40,679 nt of DNA from Streptosporangium minutum. Lineage in GTDB: Bacteria > Actinomycetota > Actinomycetes > Streptosporangiales > Streptosporangiaceae. The translations under genes and the position numbers were made by a program. Of the stretch, positions 7,870-39,630 are shown in pieces (position 1 is the stretch's first letter; every line of letters starts with the position of its first letter). The notes under the pieces were generated by a model, which saw only the letters and a list, made by a program, of their open reading frames with translations, ran no database searches and was not told where the DNA came from. Location of the stretch: contig NZ_NGFP01000052.1 in the NCBI RefSeq assembly GCF_002149035.1, forward strand, positions 1-40,679. The letters run 5' to 3'.

Positions 7870-9306
7870 ATGTCACAACGATCCAGATCCGCGCTCACCG
7901 CGCTGGCCTGCACCCTGCTGACGCTGGCCACACCCGGCACGCCGGCGGCGGCCGGCACCGGCGCGCATGCCGCCGACGGCGTGCGGCAGGCCGTCACACG
8001 TGCCGCCGCGCCCTGTGTCCGGCCGGGGCAGACGACCTACCCCGTGGACTACTACTGGAAGAACGTCCTCGGCATGCGGCTGGGCAGCGGGTCGGTCGCG
8101 GTCAACACCTCCCCGTCCCTGTGGGGCGGGCAGATCGCACCGGGCAGCGTCTTCACCGTCACCCTGACGCACCGCACGAACCAGTGGCCGCTGCTGGTCA
8201 GGAGCTACACCACCACGTGGGACCTGTCGTCGCTGCTGGCCGCCGCCGACATCATCGGCCAGTCGGGGGCCGGCACCATCAGCGGCACCACCCTGTCGAT
8301 CACCTCGCAGGGCTCCAAGACCGACCCGGTCGCCAAGGCCATCACCTTCCAGGTCAGGCAAGGCACCATCGGGGCCGGCATGACCATCCGGCCCACCGGG
8401 ATCAGCAGCGTCATCGCCGCCCCGGGCCAGCTCGGGAACAACACCCCCGCCCCGCCGATCCAGATCGTGGCCGGGCAGTCCATCGCACCCACCAACGCCG
8501 TCGCCGACAGCGCCACCACCGCGATGGGCGCCGCGGTCAGCGTGCCCGTCCTGGCCAACGACACCGCGACCGCACCGGCGATCAGCGGCCTCACCCAGCC
8601 CGGCAACGGCACCGCGACGATCTCCGGCGGCACCGTGGTCTACACCCCCGCCGCGGGCTTCATCGGCACCGACACCTTCACCTACACCATCACCACCGCC
8701 TGCGGGAGCAGCACCGCCACGGTCACCGTCACCGTCCCCTGCCCCTGGAAACCGGTCAACCTGGTCAACGGCAGCTTCGAGGCACCGCCCGTGGCCACGA
8801 TCGACTGGTCCATCCCCGACGCCTCCGTCAACCCGGGCGTCGGCTGGCACACCACCGCCACCGACAACAAGCTGGAGTTCTGGCGGGGCGGTGCGTCCGG
8901 GATCCCGGCAGCCGACGGCCAGCAGTTCGCCGAGCTCAACGCCAACCAGGTCTCCACGCTCTACCAGGACGTGCCCACCGTTCCGGGGACCCCGATGACC
9001 TGGTCGCTGTATCACCGGGGCCGTCTGGGCACCGATGTGATGCGGGTGCTCGTCGGCGCCCCGGGCGCGGCCGTGGCTCAAATTCCCACCGGGGCCTCCT
9101 CGCCGGACATCTCCGACGACAACACCGCCTGGCGCCACTACACCGGGGTGTACGTCGTCCCGCCGGGACAGACCACCACGCGATTCGCCTTCGAGTCGGT
9201 GTCCGCCGCGGGGGGCACCCCGACGGCCGGCAACTTCCTGGACGGCGTGGTGTTCCAGACGCCGCCCTGCCCGACCACCAGCAAGAACGTGGTGCAGACG
9301 GGCTGA
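7870..9306 (+). CDS. Secreted protein with cadherin-like Ig domain and C-terminal jelly-roll-like domain
   Basis: 478 residues from the ATG at 7870 (GGAACGGAAG about 9 nt upstream). Residues 1-36 are a Sec signal peptide (RSRSALTALACTLLTLATPG, then TPAAAGT). A beta-rich N-terminal domain (about 50-215) follows. Residues about 215-295 are a bacterial cadherin-like/Big_9 module: VPVLANDTATAPAISGLTQP, GTVVYTPAAGFIGTDTFTY and TATVTVTV. The last 180 residues start LVNGSFEAPPV and include GWHTTATDNKLEFWRGGA, ADGQQFAELNANQVSTLYQD and LYHRGRLGTDVM, a beta-sandwich seen at the ends of bacterial surface proteins and probably binding-related. There is no LPXTG or membrane anchor, so release to the medium is likely. 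Function unknown. Confidence 0.82.
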   Translation: MSQRSRSALTALACTLLTLATPGTPAAAGTGAHAADGVRQAVTRAAAPCVRPGQTTYPVDYYWKNVLGMRLGSGSVAVNTSPSLWGGQIAPGSVFTVTLTHRTNQWPLLVRSYTTTWDLSSLLAAADIIGQSGAGTISGTTLSITSQGSKTDPVAKAITFQVRQGTIGAGMTIRPTGISSVIAAPGQLGNNTPAPPIQIVAGQSIAPTNAVADSATTAMGAAVSVPVLANDTATAPAISGLTQPGNGTATISGGTVVYTPAAGFIGTDTFTYTITTACGSSTATVTVTVPCPWKPVNLVNGSFEAPPVATIDWSIPDASVNPGVGWHTTATDNKLEFWRGGASGIPAADGQQFAELNANQVSTLYQDVPTVPGTPMTWSLYHRGRLGTDVMRVLVGAPGAAVAQIPTGASSPDISDDNTAWRHYTGVYVVPPGQTTTRFAFESVSAAGGTPTAGNFLDGVVFQTPPCPTTSKNVVQTG

Positions 9307-37439: not shown

Positions 37440-38687
37440 ATGGCGACGGTTGGCGAACCGGATCAGATCGCTCCCGACGGCGACGGGAACCGGCCGTGGG
37501 CGGGCGTGGCCGGGGGCCTGCCCGCCGGGGCGGCGCGGTGGTACCGCCGGGACCCACTGGGATTCGTCGAGCGGGCGGCCCGCGAGCGGGGCCCGGTGTT
37601 CCGACTTCCCGACGACGGGTCCCTGTGCGTGGCCGACCCGGTGGAGGCCCTGCGGGTGCTGCACGACGAGGAGGGCCACTACGACGAGGTGTCCGACTTC
37701 TTCCACCTCCGCGGCGGCCGGCTGGAGCCGCGGGCGACACAGGTCGCGATCGGGCGGGCGGCGCGCGCGACGTTACGCGCCCACCTGGCCGCGCACCGCG
37801 AACGGCTGCCCGCCGTCGTGGCGGAGCTGGGGGAGGTCAGCGAGTGGCCGTCGGCCGGACGCACCGCCGCGTACCGGTTCCTGGCCGGGGCGCTGCTGCG
37901 CCCGGACAGCCCGCCGGCGCTACGGGAGCTGATGGCGCGGGTGGTGCGGCGCGATGTCCTGATCCGTCCCGCCGGCCCGCTGGCGCGCGCGGCGCAACAG
38001 GCGCTGTGGGCGCGCGTGGTACGGGCGGTCGCCGGTGAGGCACGTGCCCGGCGGGCCGGCCCACCGCCCGGCCGGCCCGGCGACCTGCTGGACGCCGTGA
38101 TCGAGGCCACCCCGCCCGGCACCCCCGCCGAGCAGGTCGCCCAGGCCTACCTGCTGCTGTTCCGGACCTCGGTGGCGCCGGTGGGCCACGTGGTCGCCTG
38201 GGCGCTGCTGGCGGCCGCGACCCACGGCGTCGACCTGGCGGACGTGCCCGCGGAGTCGGCCGTACGGGAGTCGCTGCGGCTGTGGCCGGTGGCGTGGCTG
38301 CTGGGCCGCCCGGTACTCCGCGCCCACCAGGTCGGCGGCGTGCGGCTGGAGCCGGGGGAGAGCGTGTCGGTCTGCTCCTACCTGCTGCACCGCGACGACC
38401 GGCACTGGCCGCAGGCCACCCGGTTCAGGCCCGGCAGGTGGGACGGCCCCGGCCCCCGCGGGCCCTACCTGCCCTTCGGCGGCGGCCCGTTCACCTGCGC
38501 CGGCGCCGCCGTCGCCCAGACCCTGGCCACCGACCTTCTCGCCGCCGTGACCGACGGCGCCCGCCTGGAGGTACGCGGCGGCCACGGACGCCCCCACGTC
38601 GCCGGCATCATCACCCCTCCCCGGTTCGAACTGCGCCGGACCCCACACCAGCCCCCGACCACCAGCCGCCACCAGGAAAGGAGGTGA
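37440..38687 (+). CDS. Cytochrome P450, probable peptide cross-linking enzyme of a RiPP locus
   Basis: 415 residues. The heme-binding motif FGGGPFTCAG (346-355, Cys353 ligand) and the K-helix ESLR (277-280) are present, as are HRDDRHWP and the FRPGRWDG 'PERF'-like stretch. The I-helix (AYLLLFRTSVAPVGHVVAWA, from 236) lacks the usual (A/G)Gx(D/E)T acid-alcohol pair; A and P take the E/T places. ATG 37440 was chosen because the earlier 53 codons are not P450-like; GTG 37425 is an alternative. The TGA stop lies inside the ribosome site of the next gene, a 21-codon peptide gene, so the two are translationally coupled. P450s paired with tiny precursor genes install biaryl or C-N bonds between aromatic side chains. 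Confidence 0.9.
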   Translation: MATVGEPDQIAPDGDGNRPWAGVAGGLPAGAARWYRRDPLGFVERAARERGPVFRLPDDGSLCVADPVEALRVLHDEEGHYDEVSDFFHLRGGRLEPRATQVAIGRAARATLRAHLAAHRERLPAVVAELGEVSEWPSAGRTAAYRFLAGALLRPDSPPALRELMARVVRRDVLIRPAGPLARAAQQALWARVVRAVAGEARARRAGPPPGRPGDLLDAVIEATPPGTPAEQVAQAYLLLFRTSVAPVGHVVAWALLAAATHGVDLADVPAESAVRESLRLWPVAWLLGRPVLRAHQVGGVRLEPGESVSVCSYLLHRDDRHWPQATRFRPGRWDGPGPRGPYLPFGGGPFTCAGAAVAQTLATDLLAAVTDGARLEVRGGHGRPHVAGIITPPRFELRRTPHQPPTTSRHQERR

Positions 38688-38692
38688 GTTAC

Positions 38693-38758
38693 ATGAGGAA
38701 GCTGCTGCGCCGAGTTACCGGCCGCCGGGTCAACCGGCAGGCATGGCACATCTGGTAA
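38693..38758 (+). CDS. 21-residue RiPP precursor peptide ending in AWHIW
   Basis: The peptide has a basic 16-residue leader (MRKLLRRVTGRRVNRQ; seven Arg/Lys) followed by the C-terminal AWHIW and TAA. AAAGGAGGTGA (38677-38687), a near-perfect anti-16S match, lies 8 nt before the ATG, the strongest ribosome site in the window. It contains the P450 stop codon, 5 nt before the start. Two Trp and one His at the end provide oxidisable rings for the P450. The tail resembles AWYIWY, the core I recall for tryptorubin-type atropopeptides, with Tyr to His and loss of the last Tyr. Biarylitide- and cittilin-type systems share the P450-plus-tiny-precursor logic. Too short for ordinary gene finders. Confidence 0.85.
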   Translation: MRKLLRRVTGRRVNRQAWHIW

Positions 38759-38773
38759 GCCTTCTCCCAGCGG

Positions 38774-38801
38774 CCGCGCCGGGCCCGACGGCCCGGCGCG
38801 G
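38774..38801 (+). terminator. Strong stem-loop between precursor and methyltransferase genes
   Basis: CCGCGCCGGGCC (38774-38785) and GGCCCGGCGCGG (38790-38801) pair perfectly over 12 all-G/C bp with a CGAC tetraloop, 16 nt after the precursor stop and 49 nt before the methyltransferase start. It may act as a partial terminator or 3' mRNA stabiliser that raises the peptide transcript over the downstream gene, a common device in RiPP operons. Confidence 0.7.
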
Positions 38802-38850
38802 TCCTCGACCCGGCGCGCGGCCACGGGACACCCGCGCGCAGGAGGCGCGC

Positions 38851-39630
38851 ATGTCGCATGTGGATGAGACGCTGGCGGCGTACGAGAGCGTCGCGGCCCG
38901 GTATGACGAGCTGAACGCGCGGATGGACACCGCCAGGCTGGTGGACCGCTACGTGGAGGCGGTGGATCGGTACGGTTCGGGCGGGCGGCGACTGCTGGAC
39001 GCCGGGTGCGGGACCGGCCGCAGCAGCGTGGCCTTTCGCGAGCGGGGGTTCGAGGTGACGGGCTACGACCTGTCCCCGGCGATGGTGGCGATGGCCCGGC
39101 GCCGGCCCGGGGCCGAGGGGATCGGGTTCCAGGTGGGACGGCTGCAGCAGCCCCCGCCCGGGTTGACCGGCTTCGACGTGATCGCCTGCGTGGATGTGCC
39201 GATGGCCTACCTGACCGAGACAGACCAGCTGCGGCGGGCGCTGGCGGCCGCGCGTGACCAGCTCGTCGAGGACGGGGTGCTGCTCTTCGACCTCAGCACC
39301 GTCGGTTACTACCGGCGCGCGTTCGGCGTCCCCGCGGTCGCCGACCGGGGGGACCGGTACGTGGCGTGGTTCGCGGTGTCCCCGCGGATCGAGGCCGACG
39401 CGGTCGTGGTCACCCAGTTCGACCTGTTCGAGCGGGCCGGCGACGGTTGGGAGCGGGTGTCGATGCGGCATGTGCAGCGGCACCACTCCGACCGGACGGT
39501 GCGCCAGGTGGCCGAGCAGGCCGGGCTGCGCGTCGTGGCCACCCGCGGGCTGGTGGGGACGTCGGCACGGGAACCGGCCGACGAGGAGGACCACGACCGG
39601 ATCCTGTACGTCGCCCGCCGGGCCGGCTGA
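38851..39630 (+). CDS. Class I SAM-dependent methyltransferase, probable RiPP tailoring enzyme
   Basis: 259 residues. It starts MSHVDETLAAYESVAARYDE, the usual N-terminal helix with YD motif. Motif I is RLLDAGCGTGRSSVAFRERG (SAM Gly-rich loop), then VTGYDLSPAMVAMARRRP (acidic loop), FDVIACVDVPMAYL and DGVLLFDLSTVGYYR. The C-terminal half has HVQRHHSDRTVRQVAEQAGL, typical of Methyltransf_11/25 small-molecule or peptide N-methyltransferases. GGAGG 5 nt upstream fixes the ATG at 38851. Position directly after the P450 and peptide genes suggests it methylates the cross-linked product (N-terminus, His or Trp), which is inference. No peptidase for leader removal is visible nearby. Confidence 0.88.
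   Translation: MSHVDETLAAYESVAARYDELNARMDTARLVDRYVEAVDRYGSGGRRLLDAGCGTGRSSVAFRERGFEVTGYDLSPAMVAMARRRPGAEGIGFQVGRLQQPPPGLTGFDVIACVDVPMAYLTETDQLRRALAAARDQLVEDGVLLFDLSTVGYYRRAFGVPAVADRGDRYVAWFAVSPRIEADAVVVTQFDLFERAGDGWERVSMRHVQRHHSDRTVRQVAEQAGLRVVATRGLVGTSAREPADEEDHDRILYVARRAG

Follow-up and report, generated by a model that had tools for sequence, protein, structure and literature searches.

A candidate P450-modified peptide cassette of Streptosporangium minutum with a 21-codon precursor and a predicted Trp-Trp cross-link

The DNA analysed here (the window) is the 40,679-nucleotide stretch of Streptosporangium minutum contig NZ_NGFP01000052.1 (assembly GCF_002149035.1, forward strand), and near its end lies a cassette of a cytochrome P450 gene, a 21-codon gene and a methyltransferase gene which is very likely a P450-modified RiPP (ribosomally synthesized and post-translationally modified peptide) cassette. 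The P450, the predicted peptide cross-linking enzyme, is encoded at 37440..38687 (+ strand; ATG 37440, stop 38685-38687); it matched Pfam PF00067 with 66.4 bits (cut-off 22.8) and carries the heme motif FGGGPFTCAG and an ExxR motif (ESLR). Its final codons are overlapped by the ribosome-binding region AGGAAAGGAGGTGA (38674..38687, +), and the precursors of relatives are likewise preceded by ribosome sites of the GGAGGTGA type. The precursor gene (38693..38758, +; ATG 38693, TAA 38756-38758) encodes MRKLLRRVTGRRVNRQAWHIW, for which no meaningful match was obtained in Pfam or NCBIfam families. The peptide consists of a leader, MRKLLRRVTGRRVNRQ (38693..38740, +), with an RR anchor 12 residues ahead of the first Trp, and a core, A-W-H-I-W (38741..38755, +), in which Trp18 and Trp21 are predicted to be cross-linked and His19 is variable. 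A G+C-rich hairpin of 14 pairs without a T-run (38772..38803, +) separates the precursor from a gene for a class I SAM (S-adenosylmethionine) methyltransferase (38851..39630, +; Pfam Methyltransf_25, 1.4e-15), a predicted tailoring enzyme. Genes beyond the methyltransferase are unrelated to the cassette. The gene content proposed in the earlier note (a P450, a 21-codon gene behind a strong ribosome site, and a methyltransferase) was thus confirmed from the open reading frames (ORFs), Pfam and conservation in 14/14 loci. Its reading as a compact RiPP cassette of P450 and precursor, whose aromatic core resembles that of atropopeptides, was supported.

Close homologues of the P450 were present in 5/16 genomes of the window's genus (own genome included). 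A scan of genome contigs gave 38 loci, of which 11 are close; adding the window and the loci of genomes G005 and G012 makes up the 14 distinct close loci compared here (the window, three named Streptosporangium, two further congeners, seven Nonomuraea and Bailinhaonella thermotolerans), whose P450s form a group of 14 rows at 76-94% identity. A search for the case that had been named against the proposal, a 21-codon frame lost where the P450 persists, gave the reverse result: the peptide is intact in 14/14 loci (window counted). Codons 4, 5, 6, 7, 8 and 17 vary synonymously, and since the amino acids are conserved in 14/14 loci despite this variation, the 21-codon ORF is a real gene. Changes in the leader are confined to residues 1 (GTG start), 2, 4, 5, 10 and 13. 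In the core, A17, W18, I20 and W21 are invariant in all 14 loci, and residue 19 is F in seven, H in three, Y in two (AWYIW, in Nonomuraea roseoviolacea and N. rhodomycinica), R in one and W in one, with 6 or more changes on a P450 tree of the close loci that was made by a quick method and has several weak inner branches. The sole aromatic residues that never vary in the peptide of this group are the two Trp, at Trp(i)/Trp(i+3) spacing.

A profile from five close relatives was searched against 394 genomes of the class and returned two full-length genes with 264 and 244 bits, then a decayed copy with 93 bits, all others scoring at most 87 (own genome aside). Trees separate the 14 close rows from the 28 wider rows, each set forming its own group; the wider-clade P450s are 38-47% identical to the window P450 and occur in Streptomyces, Nocardia, Embleya, Saccharothrix and other hosts. 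A recognisable precursor lies just 3' of the P450 in 40/41 distinct loci (L022/L068 and L023/L075, with zero-length P450 branches, each counted once; the decayed copy of genome G129, L024, and an Embleya record filed as plasmid left out). All 40 precursors have at least two core Trp. The distance from the RR-type anchor (HR in L062) to the first Trp is 12 residues in 14/14 close and 11 in 25/26 wider precursors, most wider-clade precursors having in addition a Pro four residues ahead of that Trp. Between the outermost core Trp there are 1 (14 loci), 2 (14), 4 (5), 5 (4) or 6 (3) residues, where extra leader Trp in L053 and L055 were ignored and L047 and L056 have three core Trp. WYWY, WNINHTW and WSSSGSDW are examples of cores in the wider clade. 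Trp spacing tracks the P450 phylogeny, with 6 changes on a 42-row P450 tree against a shuffled mean of 22.0 (0/200 shuffles as low). Because the main precursor finder required Trp and aromatics, a looser mechanical rule was also applied (part of a ribosome-site-like hexamer, 10-45 aa, start between -20 and +120 relative to the P450 stop, two or more Trp in the final 16 residues); it returned an ORF at 34/42 family P450 rows and at 0/17 other P450 loci. Seven of the eight remaining rows have a precursor in the wider scan, and in one, L073, none was recognised. Neither the trees nor the mechanical-rule scan included L066, whose match begins ahead of a stop.

Two loci outside these counts were recorded. 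At L024 1012-1818 (G129) a wider-clade P450 is missing profile positions 215-275, and roughly the first 100 positions are without an in-frame counterpart; the precursor MTSTMRRIFTNKPARRWYWY is intact beside the damaged P450, as in a decaying cluster. A 5.7-Mb record of Embleya sp. NBC_00888, filed as plasmid, carries a wider-clade P450 (43.7% identity) at NZ_CP108785.1 1717723-1718826.

The P450 is likely to link Trp18 to Trp21 through their side chains (probability about 0.75), a reading that draws on analogy with described enzymes; residue 19 varies while both Trp are fixed, so a Trp-Trp cross-link is far likelier than a Trp-His bond. In cihunamide, two Trp at Trp(i)/Trp(i+3) spacing are joined by an N1-C7 bond (PMC11002830, PMC13250620, PMC13383641), and scabrirubin is WFIW with a single Trp-Trp C-N bond (PMC11450843); its WFIW is the core of 7/14 close relatives. 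The P450 ScaB links Trp1 to Trp4 in W-x-x-W cores, and it cyclised the ScaA variants F24H and F24R, i.e. WHIW and WRIW (PMC12352619). These engineered variants, made with another enzyme, are the natural cores of the window (WHIW) and of S. saharense (WRIW). By this likeness, the basic leader would dock on the P450 via its RR region and present Trp18, and the heme oxidant would couple this residue to Trp21, side chain to side chain, with net loss of 2 H. The bond would most likely run from indole N1 to C7', as in cihunamide and scabrirubin, and give a W-x-x-W macrocycle. The leader, perhaps together with Ala17, might then be cut off by host proteases, and the methyltransferase would modify an invariant group, most likely the N-terminus.

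Several observations weigh against this interpretation of the cassette and its product. The clade P450s have 27-34% local identity to P450s of known Trp-Trp chemistry, and because this identity is low the bond type was transferred on the basis of the core sequence. In 13/14 close relatives residue 19 is either His or an aromatic residue, so additional bonds are possible in some members. The finder behind the count of 40/41 presupposed Trp and aromatics, and the looser rule gave 34/42. At the Nocardia transvalensis locus (L073), which has the P450 and a strong ribosome site, no Trp precursor was recognised. The methyltransferase was found neither in the S. saharense flanks nor in any of 29/29 wider rows (threshold 1e-8; some flanks short). 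As a separate observation, the ORF behind the ribosome site of L073 (MIKTRTCHRPDGRQF...) is without Trp and could represent another core type or a broken precursor.

A product with more rings, in which the P450 of the same cassette forms several bonds or adds a hydroxylation, is unlikely. The tryptorubin P450 does install three bonds (PMC12352619), and residue 19 is F, Y or W in 10/14 loci; against this stand the R or H at that position in the other 4/14 and the outcome with ScaB, where the tested W-x-x-W precursors gave products 2 Da lighter with one ring (PMC12352619).

A second alternative to the singly bridged Trp-Trp product of a separate enzyme group is an atropopeptide with a leader and P450 that drifted far from the rest, possibly with several tryptorubin-like bonds; it is improbable. 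Three features define the atropopeptides (PMC11450843): a class P450, a leader of the KSLK type and a Trp as the second core residue. The third feature was found in 14/14 close loci (AWxIW, if the core begins at Ala17), and relatives with AWYIW and WFIW resemble tryptorubin and scabrirubin, which speaks for the drift. A KSLK-type motif was found in 0/40 family precursors, and the model NF038372, which matched a tryptorubin precursor at 4e-15, gave no match among five family precursors scanned (E up to 10). The core AWYIWY given for tryptorubin in the earlier note was borne out, as it occurs directly before the stop in 8/295 genomes of the genus of genome G405, with a KSLK leader in all eight; in these loci the precursor lies 5' of the P450, in reverse of the window clade, where the P450 lies 5' of the precursor. 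The first five residues of that core equal the AWYIW of N. roseoviolacea and N. rhodomycinica, but the final Tyr is absent there, and leader, gene order and P450 group are unlike those of tryptorubin A.

The P450 comparison bears on the same question from both sides. Against four tryptorubin P450s the window P450 scored 51-72 bits, and against ScaB 43.5-57 bits (29-31% identity over 369 and 167 aligned residues), whereas ScaB and a tryptorubin P450 scored 438 bits against each other (64% identity). For comparison, among the 29 other P450s identified by Pfam in the window's genome, the 25 compared (4 frames left out) scored a median of 34.3 and a best of 75.5 bits with the window P450, so the tryptorubin P450s are nearer than a typical P450, though not above the best, and a distant kinship is possible. 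Scores of 71-95 bits with the 17 other P450s are flattered, because that set was fetched as best matches of the window P450 or its profile. In a 64-row tree made by a quick method, the tryptorubin P450s fall on the clade's side of a branch (SH-aLRT 99%) that splits off 16/17 other P450s, with meeting long branches flagged and the position of 9ulw unsure. The I-helix motif [AG]Gx[DE]T is absent from 42/42 family rows, 4/4 tryptorubin P450s and 9ulw, and present in 11/17 other P450s. The window P450 stands in its own tree group with bit scores far below 438, which argues against an atropopeptide class P450 as judged by tree and scores rather than by the authors' classifier. On sequence grounds, the window clade and the tryptorubin/ScaB P450s would be separate groups, perhaps sharing one old root. 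A canonical atropopeptide was rejected, two defining features (class P450 and KSLK-type leader) being absent; the membership suggested earlier was not supported. Of the wording 'new member or new subclass', subclass is nearer the evidence, with the difference in leader and P450, not in the His.

Among solved structures, the P450 chain of PDB 9ulw was the sole one with E < 1e-20 among the matches listed (near end-to-end alignment, E 2.4e-39, 29% identity to the window P450); 9ulw compared with plasmid sequences gave no match. P450Blt (8u2m), for which no head-to-head comparison was made, was not among the best 60 of 190 solved-chain matches to the window P450. With NF050147, the model of the aminopyruvatide P450 ApyO, the window P450 scored 70.3 bits, below the curated 525.

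Identification of the known KSLK loci was made from the precursors. L102 is taken by us as the ScaA/ScaB locus because it encodes a GTG-start peptide of 28 residues with W23 F24 I25 W26 and the core TWFIWYS, and L103 agrees in contig number and position with the published sva cluster. An assignment by species name, of L052 (Embleya scabrispora) to ScaB and of L060 (S. varsoviensis) to SvaB, was rejected from their precursors; the KSLK loci L102 and L103 lie elsewhere in the same genomes. A KSLK locus and a new-clade cluster coexist in Embleya scabrispora (L052/L102), Embleya hyalina (L063/L101) and Streptomyces varsoviensis (L060/L103).

A bond between a Trp and His19, the cross-link favoured in the earlier note, is highly improbable. 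The RiPP P450 SroB makes Trp(i)-His(i+3) C-N bonds (PMC11002830), so such chemistry has a precedent, but in the window core the His would be a neighbour or next-but-one to the Trp instead of at i+3, and His19 is replaced by F, R, Y or W in 11/14 loci whose P450s are 76-87% identical to that of the window. With residue 19 variable and A, W, I and W fixed around it, the Trp-His bond was rejected.

The methyltransferase is present in 13/14 close loci, and methylation of the product is plausible, at roughly even odds. As residue 19 varies, the target should be an invariant group; the N-terminus is favoured by us, by analogy with myxarylin (PMC12951456). The hairpin 5' of the gene gave z -3.86 with dinucleotide shuffles (60 nt) and about -1.5 with plain shuffles (70 nt, a cruder test), and one compensatory pair (C-G in 8, U-A in 5) was seen in 13 of the 14 close loci, N. 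rhodomycinica (L045) left out. With plain shuffles, hairpins at z below -1.5 were obtained in 29/34 loci, the other five being the window (about -1.5), L045, L047, L048 and L055. No terminator was found by the T-run rule. Since there is no T-run and S. saharense keeps the hairpin without the methyltransferase, the hairpin is likelier to be a 3' end or processing element than an attenuator, and it may keep precursor transcripts at a higher level than methyltransferase transcripts. The 21-codon ORF as a Trp-sensing attenuator peptide controlling the methyltransferase, a reading favoured by its pair of Trp codons and by the stable hairpin immediately 5' of a gene, was rejected as barely credible, the peptide and hairpin persisting in S. 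saharense and the Trp peptide, mostly with the hairpin, in wider members where no methyltransferase homologue was found. Two irregular loci were noted: in S. saharense (L043) repeated CGCGCCGGT-like units lie between the precursor stop (near 9209) and the hairpin, and in N. rhodomycinica (L045) the hairpin is disrupted and the stretch 3' of the precursor stop is rich in C runs, by degeneration or a sequencing problem. Outside the cassette, no flanking ORF of at least 130 aa recurred at three or more other loci of its group (12 close, 27 wider compared; cassette-overlapping ORFs and L003, L004, L022 and L023 left out).

Among described systems, scabrirubin (WFIW), cihunamide B and strecintide 839 share with the window one P450, a short precursor and a W-x-x-W core. 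The window cassette differs from these W-x-x-W atropopeptides or bitryptides in its 16-residue RR leader without a KSLK-type motif, a core ending at the second Trp, the P450 ahead of the precursor and the added methyltransferase. The wider RR-leader clade has the same gene order, RR-type anchor, two Trp and usually a hairpin after the precursor, but also spacings of 1, 4, 5 and 6 and no methyltransferase homologue in the flanks examined. Biarylitides and myxarylin have in common with the window cassette the P450 cross-link, predicted in the latter, and myxarylin also has a class I methyltransferase, which N-methylates last (PMC12951456). Biarylitides have an 18-bp pentapeptide gene, and the window precursor has 21 codons and no Tyr in the core; it lies outside the biarylitide rule of PMC13417212 (precursor of 5-8 residues, aromatics at 3 and 5). 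The gene-level logic would fit the cyptides, an umbrella term for P450 biaryl RiPPs. Literature searches with the core or leader strings AWHIW, AWFIW, AWYIW, RRWYWY and NKPARRW returned only papers judged unrelated by title and opening of the abstract, an earlier description being possible, and searches for P450 with Nonomuraea and Streptosporangium, or for P450 with Trp-Trp and leader peptide, returned nothing. Leader, P450 group and range of Trp spacings appear to set the cassette apart from known kinds.

A broader proposal, to which somewhat less than an even chance is given, is that the close and wider groups make up, alongside the KSLK atropopeptides, a second family of P450s that form Trp-Trp macrocycles, in which the RR leader would act as a ruler fixing the first Trp, the enzyme clade would set the ring size from W-x-W to W-x6-W, and the W-[Y/F]-I-W core would be shared through convergence or a very old split. 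If true, the family would represent a single scaffold varied naturally in ring size, and P450s with natural substrates from W-x-W to W-x6-W could be a source of Trp-Trp staples of selectable ring size. Whether the W-x-x-W scaffold arose once or twice becomes testable, as the WFIW core, but not the leader, is common to ScaB and the P450s of relatives with AWFIW. The final rule of AtropoFinder/CoreFinder requires a KSLK-type motif (PMC11450843), so clusters of the window clade would fall outside its set.

Further short ORFs were seen beside other P450 genes. At L006 (G032) the ORF MTAIKKFLRDVRAAKAGAYPFYWR (peptide start 2881, - strand), with a strong ribosome site, lies at the start of a P450-like frame and is possibly a different P450 RiPP precursor. 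The related short ORFs MIAKLLGKLSFTRHYGAYGVHDWGA (L031, 2883, -) and MIAKLLGKLSFTRHYGAYGSHEWDAYAGD (L032, 2901, -), from two genomes in the genus of G405, lie near P450 matches and are candidates for another P450 RiPP family.
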